Of a stretch of 64,000 bases of DNA, positions 24,520-35,894 are shown piece after piece (the first letter of the stretch is position 1; each line of letters opens with the position of its first letter). The stretch comes from Lachnospiraceae bacterium (GTDB taxonomy: Bacteria; Bacillota; Clostridia; Lachnospirales; Lachnospiraceae). The stretch is from NCBI GenBank assembly GCA_021771755.1, contig JAETOL010000001.1, positions 186,001 to 250,000 on the forward strand. The letters are read 5' to 3'. Below the pieces are notes generated by a model. That model did not search any database. It was not told where the DNA came from and worked only from the letters and a program-made list of their open reading frames with translations. The position numbers were made by a program, and so were the translations under genes.

Positions 24520-24548
24520 AAATATACAAGTCAATAAATATGCAGCAG

Positions 24549-24647
24549 CTTATATAAGTCCATAATCGGTTGGACGTCTCTACCAACTACCGTAATAGTT
24601 GCCTATAAGTTTTATTCAGGGTACCCAAAAAGGTAGTTGGTATTTTT
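24549..24647 (+). promoter_or_regulatory. Guanine-type purine riboswitch with overlapping terminator, predicted ON switch
   Basis: P1 is CTTATA (24549-24554) with TATAAG (24604-24609). P2 is GTCCA/TGGAC with loop TAATCGGT. J2/3 is TCTCTACC, P3 AACTA/TAGTT, L3 CCGTAA. The specificity base before the final TAT is C (24603), which pairs with guanine or hypoxanthine. The 11-base stretch TACCAACTACC (24581-24591), inside the aptamer, is exactly complementary to GGTAGTTGGTA (24632-24642), which is followed by TTTTT. Without ligand this makes a terminator; ligand binding locks the first strand in the aptamer and allows read-through. The same logic is known for the adenine switch of pbuE. Confidence 0.93.
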
Positions 24648-26000: not shown

Positions 26001-27377
26001 ATGAAACTCGACAAAATCTTTCACTTAACGGAAAACCACACGGATGTAAAAACTGAGGTGATCGCCGGTATCACCACCTTTATGACGATGGCTTACATCC
26101 TGGCTGTAAACCCTAATATTCTGGAAGCTTCCGGAATGGACAGAGGCGCCATCTTTACTGCAACTGCACTGGCATCCTTTATTGCCACCTGCTTAATGGC
26201 TCTTTTATCCAATTATCCGTTTGTACTTGCTCCTGGTATGGGATTGAACGCGTACTTTGCATATACCGTTGTTCTTGGCATGGGTTACAGCTGGCAGCAG
26301 GCACTGGCCGCAGTTTTCGTAGAAGGTATGATCTTCATTCTTCTCTCACTGACCAATGTCCGCGAAGCGATCTTTAACTCCATTCCTATGAATCTGAAAC
26401 ACGCAGTTTCTGTAGGAATCGGTCTTTTTATCGCTTTTATCGGTCTTCAGAATGCCAAGATCGTAATCAACAACGATTCTACACTGGTAGGTATCTTTTC
26501 CTTTAAGAGCTCTGCTCAGAACGGAACCTTCAACTGCGAAGGAATCACCGTTCTTCTGGCTCTGCTGGGCGTACTGGTCACCGCAATCCTGCTTGTTAAA
26601 AATGTAAAAGGAAGTATTTTATGGGGCATCCTGATCACATGGCTTCTCGGTATCATCTGTCAGTTTACCGGACTGTATAAGCCCAACCCGGAACTTGGAT
26701 TTTTCAGTCTCCTTCCGGATTTTTCCAGAGGCATCAGCATACCAAGTATGGCTCCTACCTTTATGAAAATGGATTTCTCCATTGTATTTTCACTGGATTT
26801 CGTAGTGATCATGTTTGCGTTCCTGTTTGTCGATATGTTCGATACCCTTGGAACCCTCATTGGTGTTGCCTCCAAAGCTGATATGCTGAATAAAGACGGG
26901 AAACTTCCGCGTATCAAAGGCGCGCTCCTCTCCGATGCTGTTGGTACTTCTGTAGGTGCTATGTGCGGTACTTCTACTGTTACCACTTTTGTAGAGAGTG
27001 CTTCCGGTGTGGCAGAAGGCGGACGTACCGGTCTTACCGCTCTGGTAGCCGGACTTCTCTTCGGTCTTTCCCTGTTCCTGTCCCCGATCTTCCTTGCCAT
27101 TCCGGCCTTTGCAACGGCTCCGGCTCTGATCATCGTAGGCTTTATGATGCTTACCTCTATCACGAAGATTGATTTTGAGGACTATACAGAAGCGATTCCT
27201 TGCTTTATCGCTATTATCGCAATGCCATTTATGTACAGTATCTCTGAAGGTATTGCAATGGGTGTGATCTCCTATGTTGTGATCAACCTGATCTCAGGAA
27301 AAGCAAAAGAGAAAAAGATCAGTGCACTGATGTATGTATTAGCTGTACTTTTTGTACTGAAGTATATTTTCCTGTAA
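26001..27377 (+). CDS. NCS2-family purine permease (AzgA/PbuG-like)
   Basis: The 458-residue protein has about 12 membrane helices. Signatures of the AzgA-type hypoxanthine/guanine/adenine group are TEVIAGITTFMTMAYILAVNP, LAPGMGLNAYFAYTVV, FLFVDMFDTLGTLIGVASKA and GTSTVTTFVESASGVAEGGRTGLTALV. AAAAGGGGGTAGC precedes the start. It is co-transcribed with guaD under the guanine riboswitch, so it most likely imports guanine or hypoxanthine for catabolism or salvage. Confidence 0.93.
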   Translation: MKLDKIFHLTENHTDVKTEVIAGITTFMTMAYILAVNPNILEASGMDRGAIFTATALASFIATCLMALLSNYPFVLAPGMGLNAYFAYTVVLGMGYSWQQALAAVFVEGMIFILLSLTNVREAIFNSIPMNLKHAVSVGIGLFIAFIGLQNAKIVINNDSTLVGIFSFKSSAQNGTFNCEGITVLLALLGVLVTAILLVKNVKGSILWGILITWLLGIICQFTGLYKPNPELGFFSLLPDFSRGISIPSMAPTFMKMDFSIVFSLDFVVIMFAFLFVDMFDTLGTLIGVASKADMLNKDGKLPRIKGALLSDAVGTSVGAMCGTSTVTTFVESASGVAEGGRTGLTALVAGLLFGLSLFLSPIFLAIPAFATAPALIIVGFMMLTSITKIDFEDYTEAIPCFIAIIAMPFMYSISEGIAMGVISYVVINLISGKAKEKKISALMYVLAVLFVLKYIFL

Positions 27378-29793: not shown

Positions 29794-31500
29794 TTATTTC
29801 TCAAGGCTTTTAATCAATGCAAGATTGTATTTTTCGTAAGGATTCAGAACATCGTCTTCTATTGTATCAAATTCTTTCGGTGTGTATTTTGGAACATACC
29901 AGGGCTGCGCATCAAAATATGCCTGCAACTCCGCAGTCTTAAACATCCTCCCGTATCTGGCATAAATTTCATTTCTCGCCAGACGAAGCTGCTCTCCGGT
30001 AAGATTCATCCGGATCAGCTGCTCTTCTGTCAGATACTCCGTGCTGCTGTTTGGCAGAATGTAATTTTCGGATACTGAATTATCTGCATTCGACGTCTGT
30101 GCATCTCCTGATCCCCGGTTCTTAAAAAGCGTGATTGCTTCCCAGTTTGCATAAACCACTTCATCATCCGGATGACCGTTCATTTCGTAAAAAGAGCCTG
30201 CAATATCTACTGTAAAGTATCCGCCTCTTCTGCCTGCCCCCATCAGCTTATTTGCATAGAAACGCCAGGGGCCTGCAGCCTCGCTTATATGAGTGTAATC
30301 GCCTATCTGATACACATTCCCGTTATCGTTCCCATAAATAGTGATTCCATATCCCAGATTGGGCACAAAAGTATCTGCATCCTGCTCAGGGAAACTATCT
30401 GATATAATCAGTATCGGCTCCTGATTTTCACCTGCCGGGAGAATCGCATAATACGCACCAACACCATTTGTTTTCAAAAACTCCTCATAAGGATTTTCTT
30501 CCGGGGTATCAGAAGGATCTGACTGTTCTGTCTCTGTAATCGTACACTCCTGTATTTCTCCTATCAATGGTGTGTGGTCCTCCAGATCGATCCAGAAGCC
30601 CTCAAGGTCACCCGATGGATTTTTCCACCATTCATTCACCACTGCTGCATCCAATCTGTCTCCACGGATCAGCCTTACCAGAGAATAACAGTATGGATCC
30701 TGGCTTACTGTGGAAGAAAAGGAAAAGCCGTCGCCTCCTAACTGCTCTGACTGAAATCCCAGCGCCTGATAAGCTTCAATCATATCTATGACATCCTGGC
30801 TGTAGTTGCCGCTATACAACGGTTCTGGATCCAGGTTAAACAGACAATCTGCCTCTAAGCCGGATCCTCCATAATACAGATCAGAAGTCTGTTCCATTTC
30901 TTTGAAGCAGTTTCCATCATAGGTATACCCTACAAAGTACCATTCATATCCTGTTGCCAGATATTTCGAAACACGGTTGCATTCATAAAAAAACTGATAC
31001 TGTCCATTCGCTTTTCTTAAAAACAGATTCCCTTCAAATCCGGCATGCCCCGACTCAGACATTGTTGTCATTTCATCCGGCATTCCCTGATAATCATATC
31101 GAACCAATTCGAACATGTCAGAAACGCTCCAGGAATCTTCCCGCTGCTCATACATAGACACTCTGACGCTTTTTCCCGTTTCCAGAATGTCCCCCCGTCC
31201 TTCATAAGTCACCGCCAGGATCTCATCCTTCTGGTCATTGTCAAAATCTCTCTTTAGGCATCCCAGAATCCCCTCTTCCTCCACAGATTTCAGAAATCTT
31301 CTGTCCTGTTCCATAATCATAGGAGTCTCTATCCTCTGCCCGCCAATATACGGCAGATTGGTAATCTGAGAGATTGTCTTGGTTCCATTCATCCAAATCT
31401 GGCTGTCCGTCTTTTCCTCAGCCTTGCACAAAGTTCCCCCGTTTCCTAATGTCAAAGCGCAAAGCAAAAATACTCCCAAAACATATTTTCTCTTTTTCAC
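29794..31500 (-). CDS. Secreted protein with C-terminal YARHG domain
   Basis: GTG at 31500 follows GGAGGAGAAAAAG and is preferred over the in-frame ATG at 31515, which has no ribosome binding site. This gives about 568 residues. The signal peptide is YVLGVFLLCALTLGNGG; the following Cys is not in a clear lipobox. A long beta-rich extracellular region with several W/Y-rich segments follows. The C-terminus is a YARHG domain (EQLIRMNLTGEQLRLARNEIYARYGRMFKTAELQAYFDAQPWYVPKY), an extracellular module of unknown function common in Firmicutes. No operon partners. Confidence 0.85.
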   Translation of the reverse strand: MKKRKYVLGVFLLCALTLGNGGTLCKAEEKTDSQIWMNGTKTISQITNLPYIGGQRIETPMIMEQDRRFLKSVEEEGILGCLKRDFDNDQKDEILAVTYEGRGDILETGKSVRVSMYEQREDSWSVSDMFELVRYDYQGMPDEMTTMSESGHAGFEGNLFLRKANGQYQFFYECNRVSKYLATGYEWYFVGYTYDGNCFKEMEQTSDLYYGGSGLEADCLFNLDPEPLYSGNYSQDVIDMIEAYQALGFQSEQLGGDGFSFSSTVSQDPYCYSLVRLIRGDRLDAAVVNEWWKNPSGDLEGFWIDLEDHTPLIGEIQECTITETEQSDPSDTPEENPYEEFLKTNGVGAYYAILPAGENQEPILIISDSFPEQDADTFVPNLGYGITIYGNDNGNVYQIGDYTHISEAAGPWRFYANKLMGAGRRGGYFTVDIAGSFYEMNGHPDDEVVYANWEAITLFKNRGSGDAQTSNADNSVSENYILPNSSTEYLTEEQLIRMNLTGEQLRLARNEIYARYGRMFKTAELQAYFDAQPWYVPKYTPKEFDTIEDDVLNPYEKYNLALIKSLEK

Positions 31501-31589
31501 CTTTTTCTCCTCCATCTATTTTCTAATAATCTAATTATAACATGTACATTTACACTTTCAAATATCAACAATCTATTAAGTGTCGCTCA

Positions 31590-31734
31590 TACCAAAAGAA
31601 ACACCCGGTAGGGGAGCTACCGGGTGTTTCGAGGGGAGTATAAATAATTAAATAAGGGGTTATGTAAAAAAAATTTTTGAAGGGTAAATTCTTTTTACAA
31701 CAACAATTATAATATAAATTGGAAAAAAAAGCAA
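31590..31734 (-). ncRNA. Candidate C-rich trans-acting small RNA with its own promoter and terminator
   Basis: On the minus strand TTGCTT (31734-31729), 17 bases and TATAAT (31711-31706) precede a region with no coding frame. It ends in a 14-bp perfect hairpin (arms 31598-31611 and 31617-31630) followed by TTTT, a terminator with this orientation only. The predicted RNA (from about 31699) is about 105 nt. It has a small 5' hairpin (GTAAA/TTTAC) and four pyrimidine motifs complementary to ribosome binding sites: ACCCTTC, TAACCCCTTA, ACTCCCCTC and the terminator loop CTCCC. Such C-rich unpaired motifs are typical of RsaE/RoxS- and FsrA-like Firmicutes sRNAs. No neighbouring minus-strand gene could use this terminator. 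Confidence 0.65.
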
Positions 31735-31745
31735 TATGATTTCAT

Positions 31746-31828
31746 GAATATTATTACAACTTTTTTAACATACTATAGGATGTCATAAACAAGTTGACAA
31801 ATACAGCCGGCATTTATCCGGCTGTATT
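31746..31828 (+). promoter_or_regulatory. Leader of the Asn-rich gene: possible sporulation promoter and hairpin
   Basis: GAATATT (31746-31752) and CATACTAT (31769-31776), 16 bases apart, resemble the sigma-E pattern (KMATATT and CATACAHT, usual gap 14-15), so the match is imperfect. Just downstream, AATACAGCCGG (31800-31810) pairs perfectly with CCGGCTGTATT (31818-31828), making a stable hairpin in the 5' leader. Confidence 0.35.
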
Positions 31829-31856
31829 CAACAGATTACACCAGGAGGTAATGAAA

Positions 31857-32045
31857 ATGGCAAAAAATTATGAGTCTGAAAACAAAACAATGAACAACAA
31901 CACAAACAAAACATCTGACAAAAACTCACAGAGTGCACAGAACTGTGGAAAGAACAGCACAAAAAACACCAGTAAAAACAGTTCCAAAAACAAAATCTCC
32001 AATGCCTATGATATGGAAGAAAACAGCTATTCTGACAGATACTAA
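31857..32045 (+). CDS. Small Asn/Lys/Ser-rich protein
   Basis: CAGGAGGTAATGAAA precedes the ATG at 31857, giving 62 residues (MAKNYESENKTMNNNTNKT...). ATG at 31851 would be too close to the ribosome binding site. The protein is low-complexity, almost without hydrophobic residues, with one Cys and an acidic tyrosine-containing tail (AYDMEENSYSDRY). The composition recalls small spore-associated or coat-type proteins of Clostridia, but no family is recognised. A leader hairpin and terminator enclose it as a single-gene unit. Confidence 0.7.
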   Translation: MAKNYESENKTMNNNTNKTSDKNSQSAQNCGKNSTKNTSKNSSKNKISNAYDMEENSYSDRY

Positions 32046-32100
32046 AGCAAACATCCACTGAACTACAATCGCTTCTCCCTTCTTATATGATGATGCAGAC

Positions 32101-32131
32101 AGGAGTGCCGCCGACCGCAGCACTCCTTTTT
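32101..32131 (+). terminator. Terminator of the Asn-rich gene
   Basis: AGGAGTGC (32101-32108) pairs with GCACTCCT (32120-32127), followed by TTTT. Confidence 0.85.
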
Positions 32132-32198
32132 GCGTATATATCCTCTTTGTACTCCTTTGATTTTTTCCGCATATGATAAAGAAAAAAGGAATGCCGTT

Positions 32199-32510
32199 AT
32201 GTTTCCAATTGAAACCATTTCTGCAAAAATGCTGGATTACTATGTGGGCCGGTCCGATACCCTTATTATAGATGTCCGCGAACCGGATGCTTACAGAAAA
32301 AGCCATATTCTGGGAGCTGTAAATCTTCCCTATCAGGAACTATCCTGCTGCAGGGATCTGCCCCGTGAAAAACTTCTGATCTTTTACTGTCAGAGAGGCG
32401 GCGCCAGCATGGCTGCAGCCCGCCTTTTTGTCCGGAAAGGATACCGTACCCGTTCTGTGATCGGCGGTTTTGAAGCTTATCGAGGAAGAAATCTTGTAAT
32501 TTTTTCCTAA
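32199..32510 (+). CDS. Rhodanese-like domain protein
   Basis: The ATG at 32199, eight bases after AAAAAGGA, gives 103 residues. A single rhodanese domain is complete: LIIDVREPDAYRKSHILGAVNLPYQEL, then the active-site loop YCQRGGASM with the catalytic Cys, and VIGGFEAYRG at the end. Such proteins carry a persulfide on that Cys and transfer sulfur. The loop R-G-G-A-S matches active members. It is a single gene with a terminator after it. Confidence 0.88.
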   Translation: MFPIETISAKMLDYYVGRSDTLIIDVREPDAYRKSHILGAVNLPYQELSCCRDLPREKLLIFYCQRGGASMAAARLFVRKGYRTRSVIGGFEAYRGRNLVIFS

Positions 32511-32526
32511 CCATGATAATGTAAAA

Positions 32527-32568
32527 GAGAAAAATTCCTTTTCAGAACAGGAAAGTAATTTTTCTTAA
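32527..32568 (+). terminator. Hairpin after the rhodanese gene
   Basis: AGAAAAATT (32528-32536) pairs with AATTTTTCT (32557-32565), with partial pairing of the inner CTTTTC and GGAAAG. Its T-rich right arm can serve as the termination tract. Confidence 0.6.
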
Positions 32569-32595
32569 AACTTCCATAATAAGGAGAACGCATTG

Positions 32596-33141
32596 ATGAA
32601 ATACATGTTTGCATCAGATATACATGGTTCGGCATATTATTGTCGCAAAATGCTGGATGCTTTCCGTCAGGAAAATGCACAGCGGCTGGTTCTTCTGGGC
32701 GATCTTCTCTATCACGGTCCCAGAAACGACCTCCCGAAAGAATATGCTCCCAAAGAAGTCATCGCACTTCTCAATCAAAACAAAAACCGGATCTATGCAG
32801 TCCGTGGAAACTGTGAGGCAGAGGTGGATCAGATGGTTCTGGAATTTCCGGTCATGGCCGACTACTGCATTCTTTCTATTGATGGCAGAACTTTTTATGC
32901 CACACACGGTCATACCTACAATCAGGATCATCTGCCTCCCCTTCAGGAAAATGATATCCTGATCCACGGCCATACCCATGTCCTGAGAGCAGAGCAGATG
33001 GACGGCTATATTCTTCTGAACCCCGGCTCTGTCTCCATCCCAAAAGAAGGAAATCCGCCCACCTACGCAGTGCTGGAAGGCAACTGCTTCACCATTAAAG
33101 ATTTTGACGGAAATACTGTCAGAGAAATGAGGCTGCCATGA
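32596..33141 (+). CDS. yfcE: YfcE-type metallophosphodiesterase
   Basis: ATG at 32596 lies nine bases after AAGGAG; a TTG just before it is in frame but less well placed. The 181-residue protein has the calcineurin-like metal motifs: FASDIHGS, LLGDLLYHGPRND, AVRGNCEAEVD, YATHGHTYN and IHGHTHVLRAE. E. coli YfcE hydrolyses phosphodiesters in vitro. It heads a tight plus-strand operon with an RNA methyltransferase, rdgB and a second phosphodiesterase. Confidence 0.93.
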   Translation: MKYMFASDIHGSAYYCRKMLDAFRQENAQRLVLLGDLLYHGPRNDLPKEYAPKEVIALLNQNKNRIYAVRGNCEAEVDQMVLEFPVMADYCILSIDGRTFYATHGHTYNQDHLPPLQENDILIHGHTHVLRAEQMDGYILLNPGSVSIPKEGNPPTYAVLEGNCFTIKDFDGNTVREMRLP

Positions 33142-34292
33142 AATATATGGAACTGATTGCTCCCTGCCATTTCGGCATGGAGGCTGTACTGAAACGGGAA
33201 ATCCTGGATCTCGGCTATGAGATCAGCAAGGTAGAAGACGGAAAAGTCACCTTTCTTGCCGATGCCGCCGGAATCCCCCAGGCGAATATCTTCCTGCGTA
33301 CTACAGAACGCATCCTTCTGAAAACAGGCGAATTCAAAGCCGTTACCTTTGATGAGCTTTTTGAAAAGACAAAAGCCATTCCCTGGGAAAACTATATCCC
33401 CAAAGACGGAAAGTTCTGGGTTGCCAAAGCAAACTCTGTAAAAAGCGCACTTTTCAGCCCCTCTGATATCCAGTCCATTATGAAAAAGGCTATTGTAGAG
33501 CGCCTCAAAGGCGTTTATGGCATTTCCTGGTTTCCGGAAGACGGCGCAAGCTTTCCAATCCGTGTTGCTTTTATGAAAGACGTTGTCACGATCGGCATTG
33601 ATACTTCCGGCGTATCCCTTCACAAAAGAGGATACCGCCAGATGACGGTAAAGGCCCCGATCACAGAGACTCTCGCCTCCGCACTTATCATGCTGACACC
33701 ATGGAACAAAGACCGTATTCTGGTAGATCCTTTCTGCGGAAGCGGCACTTTTCCTATCGAAGCAGCCATGATCGCAGCCGATATGGCGCCTGGTATGAAC
33801 CGTTCCTTCCTTTCCGAGGACTGGAAGCATATCATCCCGCGCAAATGCTGGTATGATGCCATAGAAGAGGCAAACGACCGGGTAAATCTGGATATCAGAA
33901 CAGACATCCAGGGTTACGACATTGATCCGGAAGCGCTGAAGTCTGCCAGATCCAATGCCAAAATGGCAGGAGTGGACAGGCTGATCCATTTCCAGCAGAG
34001 AGCAGTCAAAGATCTGAGCCATCCCAAGCCTTATGGTTTTTTGATCACCAACCCTCCTTATGGAGAGCGTCTGGAGGAAAAAGCCGCCCTTCCTCAGCTT
34101 TACCGGGAAATCGGCGATAGCTTTGCCCGTCTGGACAAATGGTCCATGTATCTGATCACTTCCTATGATAAAGCCGAAAATGACATCGGAAGAAAAGCAG
34201 ATAAAAACCGCAAAATTTACAACGGAATGTTAAAAACCTACTACTACCAGTTTCTGGGCCCCAAGCCGCCAAGGAGGAATGTAAATCCATGA
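33138..34292 (+). CDS. THUMP-domain 23S rRNA methyltransferase (RlmL N-half/YpsC-like)
   Basis: The 384-residue protein overlaps yfcE by four bases. The N-terminal ferredoxin-like/THUMP part (ELIAPCHFGMEAVLKREILDLGYEI) is followed by an SAM-dependent methyltransferase domain: LVDPFCGSGTFPIEAAMIAADMAPG, IQGYDIDPEALKSARSNAKMAG and catalytic LITNPPYGERL. This equals the N-terminal methylase of E. coli RlmL, which makes m2G2445 in 23S rRNA. Firmicutes encode it as a single-domain enzyme (YpsC type). Confidence 0.92.
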   Translation: MKYMELIAPCHFGMEAVLKREILDLGYEISKVEDGKVTFLADAAGIPQANIFLRTTERILLKTGEFKAVTFDELFEKTKAIPWENYIPKDGKFWVAKANSVKSALFSPSDIQSIMKKAIVERLKGVYGISWFPEDGASFPIRVAFMKDVVTIGIDTSGVSLHKRGYRQMTVKAPITETLASALIMLTPWNKDRILVDPFCGSGTFPIEAAMIAADMAPGMNRSFLSEDWKHIIPRKCWYDAIEEANDRVNLDIRTDIQGYDIDPEALKSARSNAKMAGVDRLIHFQQRAVKDLSHPKPYGFLITNPPYGERLEEKAALPQLYREIGDSFARLDKWSMYLITSYDKAENDIGRKADKNRKIYNGMLKTYYYQFLGPKPPRRNVNP

Positions 34293-34873
34293 AAAAAGTA
34301 ATTTTTGCCACAGGTAATGAAGGAAAAATGAAGGAGATCCGCGAGATCCTTGGAGATCTGGATATCGAGCTGCTTTCCCTGAAAGACGCAGGCATTACTG
34401 CTGATATCGATGAAAATGGAAGCACCTTTGAAGAAAATGCCATCATCAAGGCAAAAGCCATCTGCCAGCTTACCGGAGAGATCGTCCTTGCAGATGATTC
34501 CGGACTGGAGATCGACTACCTGAACAAAGAGCCTGGCATTTATTCTGCCCGCTATATGGGAGAAGACACCTCCTACCGGATCAAAAACGCCAGCCTGATC
34601 CAAAGACTGGAGGGAGTTCCCGATGAACAGAGAACCGCACGTTTTGTCTGTGTCATTGCCGCTGCTTTCCCTGACGGTACAGTAAAAACAGTCCACGCCG
34701 CTATGGAGGGAAGAATCGGTTATGAAGAAAAAGGGGAAAACGGCTTCGGCTACGATCCCATCTTTTATCTTCCGGAATATGGCTGCTCCTCTGCTGAAAT
34801 TTCCATGGAAGAAAAAAACAAGATCAGCCACAGAGGGAAGGCTCTGCGCGCTATTAAGGATGAACTTCGATGA
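34289..34873 (+). CDS. rdgB: XTP/dITP pyrophosphatase
   Basis: The 194-residue HAM1/RdgB protein shows IFATGNEGKMKEIREIL, ENAIIKAKAICQLTGEIVLADDSGLEIDYLN, YSARYMGED and GENGFGYDPIFYLPEYG. It removes pyrophosphate from XTP, ITP and dITP, keeping damaged purine nucleotides out of DNA. It overlaps both neighbours by four bases. Confidence 0.95.
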   Translation: MKKVIFATGNEGKMKEIREILGDLDIELLSLKDAGITADIDENGSTFEENAIIKAKAICQLTGEIVLADDSGLEIDYLNKEPGIYSARYMGEDTSYRIKNASLIQRLEGVPDEQRTARFVCVIAAAFPDGTVKTVHAAMEGRIGYEEKGENGFGYDPIFYLPEYGCSSAEISMEEKNKISHRGKALRAIKDELR

Positions 34874-35381: not shown

Positions 35382-35462
35382 TGCGGGCAACAGGACTTGA
35401 ACCTGCACGTCGTAGACACCAGAACCTAAATCTGGCGCGTCTGCCAATTCCGCCATGCCCGC
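35382..35462 (-). tRNA. tRNA-Leu (anticodon UAG)
   Basis: The 81-nt minus-strand gene begins GCGGGCATGGCGGAATTGG, a class-II tRNA with a long variable arm. The anticodon loop is TTTAGGT between CCAGA and TCTGG; the T-arm is GGTTCAAGTCC; the acceptor end is TGCCCGC-A. CCA is not encoded. It has its own terminator upstream and downstream, so it is transcribed apart from the other four tRNAs. Confidence 0.96.
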
Positions 35463-35515
35463 ATAAACATATGAAATTTTCTGTATCATCCGCAATAGCG
35501 GATGTATACATTAAG

Positions 35516-35544
35516 AAAAAAAGCATCTGTATTTCTACAGATGC
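35516..35544 (-). terminator. Terminator between tRNA-Lys and tRNA-Leu
   Basis: On the minus strand GCATCTGTA and TACAGATGC close a GAAA loop, followed by seven Ts. It ends the Pro-His-Gln-Lys tRNA transcript. Confidence 0.9.
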
Positions 35545-35546
35545 AA

Positions 35547-35619
35547 TGAGGCATCGGGGATTCGAACCCCGGACAACTTGATTAAAAGTCAAGTGCTCTA
35601 CCGACTGAGCTAATACCCC
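35547..35619 (-). tRNA. tRNA-Lys (anticodon UUU)
   Basis: The 73-nt gene starts GGGGTATTAGCTCAGTCGG. The anticodon loop is CTTTTAA between CTTGA and TCAAG; the T-arm is CGGGGTTCGAATCCCCG. CCA is not encoded. Confidence 0.96.
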
Positions 35620-35627
35620 ATAATGGA

Positions 35628-35699
35628 CTGGGCTAGTTGGATTCGAACCAACGAATGCAGCAGTCAAAGTGCTGTGCCTTACCGCTTGGCGATAGCCCA
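35628..35699 (-). tRNA. tRNA-Gln (anticodon UUG)
   Basis: The 72-nt gene starts TGGGCTATCGCCAAGCGG. The anticodon loop is CTTTGAC between CAGCA and TGCTG. The acceptor stem TGGGCTA/TAGCCCA is followed by discriminator G. Confidence 0.96.
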
Positions 35700-35709
35700 A
35701 AGGCGAAAG

Positions 35710-35784
35710 GGTGGATACAGGGATTCGAACCCTGGGCCTCCAGAGCCACAATCTGGCGCGCTAACCAACTGCGCTATACCCACC
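35710..35784 (-). tRNA. tRNA-His (anticodon GUG)
   Basis: The anticodon loop is TTGTGGC between CCAGA and TCTGG. The gene encodes the extra G at -1 opposite C73, characteristic of tRNA-His (GGTGGGTATAGCGCAG start). Confidence 0.95.
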
Positions 35785-35788
35785 ACAG

Positions 35789-35820
35789 CGTGCCTGAAGG
35801 GATTCGAACCCCCGACCCAC
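35789..35820 (-). pseudogene. 3' half of a tRNA (tRNA-Arg-like) fused to tRNA-Pro
   Basis: The minus strand directly after tRNA-Pro contains CGTGGGTCGGGGGTTCGAA, then TCCCTTCAGGCACG, i.e. a T-arm and an acceptor 3' strand. No D-arm, anticodon arm or 5' acceptor strand goes with it. The 3' end matches what I remember of Clostridial tRNA-Arg (GTGCCTG acceptor). It is a deletion remnant. Confidence 0.7.
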
Positions 35821-35894
35821 GGGGGTGACAGGATTCGAACCTGCGGCCTCCTGGTCCCAAACCAGGCGCTCTAGCCAAACTGAGCCACACCCCG
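35821..35894 (-). tRNA. tRNA-Pro (anticodon UGG) with altered acceptor end
   Basis: The gene starts CGGGGTGTGGCTCAGTTTGG. The anticodon loop is TTTGGGA between CCTGG and CCAGG; the T-arm is GCAGGTTCGAATCCTGT. The 3' acceptor strand reads CACCCCC then G, where CACCCCG then A is expected, so C1 faces C72. The altered bases belong to the fused tRNA-Arg-like fragment. Function may be impaired, or the join may be an assembly fault. Confidence 0.88.

Follow-up and report, generated by a model that had tools for sequence, protein, structure and literature searches.

Can a short, C-rich intergenic stretch in a gut bacterium be recognised as the gene of a regulatory RNA, and if so, how would such an RNA act? 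Members of the Lachnospiraceae belong to the most common bacteria of the human gut. A stretch of 64,000 nucleotides of genomic DNA (the window) comes from a host that we infer to be a gut bacterium of the Blautia group of this family. It contains a candidate small RNA (sRNA) gene on the minus strand, between a gene for a YARHG-domain protein and a gene for a small Asn-rich protein. A preliminary description of this locus had proposed a C-rich sRNA with anti-Shine-Dalgarno loops, acting as a global post-transcriptional regulator in Lachnospiraceae. Here, the architecture of the locus, its conservation, its resemblance to known RNA families, its candidate targets and its association with mobile elements are described, and the alternative explanations are weighed against each of these.

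Architecture of the locus

Direct reading of the minus strand confirms the promoter TTGCTT-N17-TATAAT, and both hexamers are conserved in 31 aligned rows from the same genus (Table 1). The predicted start of the sRNA is at about 31699, and the positions of promoter and terminator give a predicted length of about 106 nt, in agreement with the earlier estimate of about 105 nt. The perfect 14-bp terminator with its CTCCC loop is present and is followed by TTTT. The four C-rich single-stranded motifs, including the terminator loop, are likewise present and are all unpaired in the predicted fold. The 5' hairpin of 14 bp, named P1, is an addition to the preliminary description. The locus had been said to be without a coding frame, which is borne out by shifts of single bases in the length of the core among relatives; a peptide-coding reading was rejected because of this variation.

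A generic promoter scan of positions 30600-32800 did not list the TTGCTT-N17-TATAAT site because its -35 element matches at just three of six positions. The same interval contains 5 promoter-like sites, compared with 5.1 in shuffles, and 1 terminator-like site, compared with 2.1 in shuffles; such counts are at chance level and therefore prove nothing alone. The case for the sRNA rests on the 14-bp stem, the fold and the conservation, which are above chance. A strong inverted repeat, AATACAGCCGG...CCGGCTGTATT, is found at 31800-31828 in the leader of the Asn-rich gene.

Table 1 Features of the sRNA locus in the window, and positions of the sRNA core on viral contigs
Feature	Position	Strand	Basis or remark
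YARHG-domain protein gene	29794-31515	minus	Pfam
Small Asn-rich protein gene	31857-32045	plus	without Pfam match
-35 element TTGCTT	31729..31734	minus	read directly; mean identity 0.946 in 31 aligned genus rows
-10 element TATAAT, 17-nt spacer	31706..31711	minus	mean identity 0.995 in 31 genus rows
Predicted sRNA, ~106 nt	31594..31699	minus	start and end inferred from promoter and terminator
Covariance model match	31593-31699	minus	model includes the window's own sequence
5' hairpin P1, 14 bp, loop ACCCUUCAA	31663..31699	minus	fold
Unpaired C-rich core CCCCUUAUUUAAUUAUUUAUACUCCCC, 27 nt	31633..31659	minus	most conserved long part
Intrinsic terminator, 14 bp perfect stem, loop CUCCC	31598..31630	minus	terminator scan, fold
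Terminator loop CUCCC	31616-31612	minus	unpaired in fold
TTTT directly after terminator	31597-31594	minus	read directly
CCC of 5' hairpin loop	31684-31682	minus	unpaired in fold
CCCC of core	31659-31656	minus	unpaired in fold
CUCCCC of core	31638-31633	minus	unpaired in fold
Core on viral contig L296	749-773
Core on viral contig L297	4274-4298
Core on viral contig L300	539-563
Core on viral contig L302	677-701
Core on viral contig L307	86-110
Core on viral contig L077	248-273

Structural conservation of the two hairpins

The predicted sRNA folds with an energy of -34.4 kcal/mol, compared with -12.8 (sd 2.2) for shuffled sequences, which corresponds to a z of -9.6; none of 200 shuffles is as stable. 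Covariation was measured in 44 diverse sequences chosen for a CCCTT motif in the 5' part, with the fold of the window as the structure. Changes on both sides are seen in 24 of the 28 pairs of the two hairpins, namely in 11 of the 14 pairs of P1 and in 13 of the 14 pairs of the terminator. Standard pairs occupy 90.3% of the cells in these sequences, compared with 74.4% in column shuffles, and fall to 49-58% when the structures are slid along the alignment. On each of five measures, none of 500 shuffles equalled the observed value. When RNAalifold was applied to 60 wider rows, the terminator was recovered and all 12 of its predicted pairs had changed on both sides. P1 was not recovered in this consensus because its sequence and length are too variable to be aligned.

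A set of 179 distinct rows was gathered by patterns that fix parts of the core and allow only A/T in the linker between its C-tracts. In all 179 rows, the 46 nt that follow the core give a fold at -10 kcal or better, and in 174 the preceding 46 nt, where the 5' hairpin is predicted, give one at -5 or better. The terminator loop contains CCC in 146 rows and the 5' loop does so in 97; for the A/U linker, just two sequences account for 163 rows. Since these rows were collected by patterns, the letters that the patterns fix gain no independent support from them; such support comes from the BLAST set from the genus, described below.

Distribution of the sRNA

When the 161-nt region was used as a BLAST query, 35 of 37 genomes of the same genus gave a match, the own genome included and a few matches being fragments. 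In the 31 aligned genus rows, 25 of the 27 columns of the core and all five columns of the terminator loop are invariant. Mean identity is 0.92-0.98 in the arms and loop of P1, 0.88-0.89 in the terminator arms and 0.835 in the promoter spacer, and it is 0.452 in the 26 bases beyond the terminator. Among 24 genomes from other families of the order, four gave a match. Two of these (G039 and G056) are true homologues by eye, with promoter, hairpin, core and terminator; the matches in G045 and G051 look like chance by eye.

The strict core pattern is found in 57 of 392 genomes of the order, representing 32 of 174 genera and four families, and its reversed control has zero matches in the same sample. 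A looser pattern, GGGGAGTATAAAN{5,14}WWAGG, is found in 180 of 397 genomes and 153 of 334 genera of the window's family, taken as Lachnospiraceae; its reversed control gave 15 genomes by hand count, and a few of the forward matches listed are visibly chance. The looser pattern leaves the middle of the core free, yet most among the matches listed carry TAATTAA. In a collection of species genomes, at least 119 core matches were obtained, and the titles among the matches listed name Lachnospiraceae, near relatives (Vallitalea and Petrocella are examples) or wider groups, for instance Clostridiales, Eubacteriales or simply 'bacterium'.

With a covariance model, divergent members were detected in four genera in which no sampled genome has the strict pattern, together with one or two distant members outside the order (G518 and G1434), where the searches used stricter filters and scored few candidates. 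In the class sample, 10 of 391 genomes matched at E <= 0.01; the own genome, one strict-core genome, four divergent Lachnospiraceae and G518 are convincing, and three are doubtful. In the order of G518, two of 69 genomes matched. In a phylum sample of 299 genomes, with filters that lose weak matches, the own genome alone matched. The covariance search and the alignment of relatives, which the preliminary description had named as its check, thus find the C-rich motifs and the hairpins kept in relatives. The stand-alone, conserved C-rich gene that it had placed in Lachnospiraceae is supported by promoter, terminator, fold and conservation together. Some genomes have more than one match: in G006 an additional, divergent copy is present whose 5' hairpin is short (L040:1537-1568), G009 and G403 have two matches each, and G931 has four pattern matches.

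Genomic neighbourhood

Around 176 loci, which are not fully de-duplicated, the recurrent neighbours of the sRNA gene are mostly upstream and on the opposite strand. They were named by resemblance to the window proteins at 32130-34873 and the Pfam domains found there. An RlmL-like methyltransferase is encoded near 71 of the loci (62 copies upstream and 62 on the opposite strand), a metallophosphoesterase near 54, a rhodanese near 53 and a Ham1-like protein near 32. At 169 loci, the first ORF upstream was classed as divergent (92 loci), co-directional (54) or absent (23). On the downstream side the first ORF is convergent at 102 of these loci and co-directional at 43, and 24 have none within 1 kb. 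From this pattern, the sRNA gene seems to be inherited in place and not to be the leader of one downstream gene. Because the nearest downstream ORF in relatives is mostly convergent, the terminator belongs to the sRNA unit, consistent with the earlier remark that its orientation serves no flanking gene.

The arrangement in the window itself could be taken for a cis-acting leader or attenuator, since the gene at 29794-31515 is downstream on the same strand, about 80 bases past the terminator, and the co-directional ORFs at 43 of the relatives' loci would be in keeping with such a function. However, this gene has a promoter-like site of its own, with 11 of 12 matching positions in a scan whose total is at chance, and the recurrent neighbours are upstream. 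A cis-acting leader is thus very improbable and was rejected because the downstream genes vary among relatives and are mostly convergent.

Two features of the surroundings may be added. An Asn/Ser/Lys-rich protein of the MAKNY type also adjoins the sRNA in locus L096. The minus strand also has five tRNA genes at 35382-35894, at a distance of a few kb from the sRNA, and tRNA clusters are also near the sRNA in L041 and L042, which are from other families.

Relationship to known sRNA families

A scan of the window with Rfam 15 identified five tRNAs and a purine riboswitch, and nothing over threshold at the sRNA locus. The riboswitch (24530-24625, plus strand) is ordinary and is located about 1.4 kb before a permease-like ORF at 26001-27377. 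In 14 further loci, from eight bacterial relatives (two outside the order) and six viral contigs, the same scan identified tRNAs only and no sRNA family over threshold.

The comparison with RsaE/RoxS that had been made for this sRNA holds for the layout but not for the sequence model. The window sRNA resembles RsaE/RoxS of Staphylococcus and Bacillus in being a Firmicutes sRNA of about 100 nt with its own promoter and terminator, in having hairpins around an open middle and in its four C-rich motifs, all unpaired in the fold. RoxS is reported to have four C-rich regions, and deletion of hfq to be without major effect on its control of ppnKB (PMC4409812); an evident need for Hfq is seen in neither RNA. 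However, the RsaE model (RF01820; gathering score 79 bits) gives no match at the sRNA locus up to E = 10, and its best match in the own genome, 24.8 bits, is elsewhere and below the cut-off. The window sRNA also belongs to another lineage, has an invariant A/U linker between its C-tracts, and its core is also found on viral contigs. Transcription of RsaE/RoxS is under the control of ResD/SrrA, and the mRNAs that it regulates belong to central metabolism.

The csRNA model (RF02379) matches the window sRNA over its full length with 31.3 bits and E = 0.02 for 331 bases searched, far below its gathering score of 57. The streptococcal csRNAs are reported to have two stem-loops and an unpaired region complementary to the SD and AUG, and to form a CiaR-driven set of several genes at variable locations (PMC3091779). 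The window sRNA shares their 5' stem-loop, unpaired C-rich middle and terminator, as seen in its fold and covariation, and may share their anti-TIR motifs, but it differs from them in giving one match in most genomes of its genus and in having recurrent neighbours. LhrC of Listeria, a Gram-positive sRNA reported to be multicopy and tied to LisRK, and FsrA of Bacillus, also a Gram-positive sRNA, were compared by sequence through the Rfam scans only. Both LhrC and FsrA use C-rich motifs, and FsrA is Fur-controlled.

A divergent csRNA or RsaE homologue, and hence a known family, would explain the full-length csRNA match and the common layout. Given how far the csRNA score falls short of its gathering value, the silence of the RsaE model at the locus and the outcome of Rfam at the 14 further loci, such a descent is improbable, and a known RNA family was rejected by the Rfam scans. 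The window sRNA very probably represents a genuine and apparently undescribed sRNA family, although of a kind that is already known. Narrow term combinations used on the open-access literature found no fitting sRNA described for Lachnospiraceae or Blautia.

Candidate targets and mode of action

Sequences complementary to the two core C-tracts occur two to three times more often at gene starts than within genes, with 5.0-7.0% upstream of starts compared with 2.1-2.5% inside genes (718 and 723 sites). The corresponding values are 5.4% and 2.9% for the complement of the terminator loop and 5.8% and 3.7% for that of the linker, and the complement of the 5' loop shows little enrichment (7.0% and 5.4%). 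However, in a test of pairing energy, 27 of 40 composition-matched shuffled cores preferred starts over coding sequence at least as much as the real core did. The fraction of starts bound at -11 kcal or better is 0.494 for the shuffled cores on average and 0.327 for the real core.

The extended match GGGGAGTAT-N(0-8)-ATG occurs once in the own genome. In 41 genomes of the genus it has 126 matches, compared with 66 for the reversed pattern (summed counts, in which a few matches overlap). The best candidate for a shared target is an AraC-like gene, named by eye, with AAAGGGGAGTATTTCATG in four of the 41 genomes, the own genome being without it, and other shared genes are common to two genomes each. 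A genus-wide shared target was not found among the extended matches of the 41 genomes, in which 20 places and 30 loci were compared. The loops are thus not borne out as anti-Shine-Dalgarno elements, since the real core fits gene starts no better than shuffled cores. A global anti-SD regulator is not supported by the energy test and was set aside on this ground.

Conservation of the A/U linker comes close to that of the C-tracts on either side, and plain SD pairing needs no such linker, so that a role in protein binding deserves consideration. In the main rival explanation, the C-rich motifs and the A/U linker would bind or titrate an RNA-binding protein, for which KhpA/KhpB, a cold-shock protein or another protein are candidates; CsrB-type RNAs, which have a different motif, may be compared. 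Such binding would account for the near invariance of the unpaired linker (163 of 179 rows, selected for an A/T-only linker), for a core that is not specially fitted to gene starts and for the repetition of C-rich motifs in the loops. Consistently, the own genome has open frames of 90 and 322 aa for two proteins with a KhpA/KhpB KH domain. However, the number of C-rich loops varies by genus, as in the 5' loop with CCC in 97 of 179 rows, and the repeat number is thus not fixed. Base-pairing sRNAs, too, typically have long conserved stretches that are unpaired, and no protein is tied to the motif. Protein binding is rather unlikely, although it is a serious contender, and base pairing with a selective set of mRNAs seems, by analogy with RsaE/RoxS and csRNAs, to be the likeliest mode of action.

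A profile search detected no Hfq in any of 299 genomes of the family, of which 246 have a completeness of at least 90% and a contamination of at most 5%, nor in any of 25 genomes of the same genus. Among 16 genomes from other families of the order, 7 do have Hfq, and G039, itself a carrier of the sRNA, is one of them. Lachnospiraceae appear to lack Hfq. Because Hfq is not detected in the family, the sRNA cannot depend there on a recognisable Hfq.

On balance, the locus probably encodes a stand-alone, C-rich regulatory sRNA of about 106 nt that is independent of Hfq and pairs with a selective set of targets. Such an RNA would be transcribed from its own sigma-A-type promoter and stopped by its own terminator. 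The 5' hairpin and the terminator hairpin would hold open the single-stranded core of 26-27 nt, in which CCCC and CUCCCC are exposed, and, in the window's genus, two further C-rich motifs would be presented in the hairpin loops. The C-tracts may then act as seeds for base pairing with G-rich segments of mRNAs, chiefly in or close to ribosome binding sites. Such a duplex would block translation or alter mRNA decay, as RsaE/RoxS and csRNAs do, and would form without Hfq. With its core in 153 of the 334 genera sampled in a family without detectable Hfq, this sRNA may offer a handle on sRNA control in Lachnospiraceae.

The sRNA gene as a putative integration site

Duplicated copies of the sRNA gene are associated with integrase-bearing elements in two genomes. 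In Blautia sp. MSJ-9 (L197), an intact sRNA gene and a second copy of core and terminator, at 172 and 19630, are separated by 19.5 kb, and a tyrosine integrase identified by Pfam adjoins the intact gene. In another Lachnospiraceae genome, two copies (L140:5423 and L180:7908) lie on one contig at a distance of about 42 kb. Next to the intact copy are genes that are phage-like by eye, the one tested being without a PHROG match, and a tyrosine integrase adjoins the truncated copy. Shorter pairs of copies are found in L096 (5912 and 7752) and in L020/L034, with no integrase seen between the copies. Core and terminator are retained in each truncated copy (L197, L180, L096 and L034), and the sRNA gene would therefore be re-formed on integration. 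Judged by these arrangements, the sRNA gene is a putative integration site, at which an intact copy and a 3'-half copy remain. One five-term combination used on the open-access literature returned nothing on sRNA genes as integration sites.

The truncated second copies that mark integrated elements in L197 and L140/L180 raise the question of whether the core owes its conservation to use as an attachment site by mobile elements and not to an RNA function. However, hosts do not preserve such sites for the benefit of invaders, and the promoter, the compensating hairpins and the neighbours are kept in loci without a visible element. Moreover, the truncated copies retain just the part that would restore the gene. 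We therefore give very little credence to conservation as an attachment site.

Six viral contigs carry the sRNA core (Table 1). In L296, a weak promoter-like site (8/12), a 5' hairpin, the core and the terminator are located directly before a portal gene. In L300, L302 and L307, core and terminator follow a small gene, which matches a phage transcription regulator in L302, weakly so in L300, and has no profile match in L307. In L300 and L307 a C-rich hairpin loop stands ahead of the core, as does a tRNA-like gene in L300 and L302. L077 has core and terminator without a 5' hairpin, and L297 looks like a host-type sRNA gene. No match to the L302 region was obtained in a collection of named phages, and named phages and plasmids gave short weak matches at most to the window sRNA.

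The unusual traits of this sRNA are its frozen unpaired core, its occurrence in a family without detectable Hfq and its copies on viral contigs. A bolder and decidedly doubtful proposal would combine them: the frozen core would not be a general anti-Shine-Dalgarno seed but the recognition element of a post-transcriptional hub in Lachnospiraceae, read by an RNA-binding protein or by one dedicated target set, Hfq would have been lost from the family, and phages would carry RNA copies of their own with this core and integrate while re-forming the gene. The viral copies and the use of the gene for integration may be relevant to phage-host relations.

Possible control of the promoter

The sequence TGTCGAA/TTCGACA, which we take to be the exact Spo0A box, is found in 10 of 96 non-redundant sRNA promoters. 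The number expected from shuffles is 0.5, with a maximum of 3 in 200 rounds, and that expected from the density of the box in other intergenic DNA of the named-genome loci is 0.55. The box is absent from the sRNA promoter of the window. Sites of the form TGTCGAA are located in or near the sRNA promoters of L065, L068, L092, L104, L115, L119, L144, L155, L158 and L196. This suggests, as a lead only, that the sRNA may be repressed at the onset of sporulation in some genera. Six of the ten boxes are between the two hexamers as placed by script, two are ambiguous and two are upstream.
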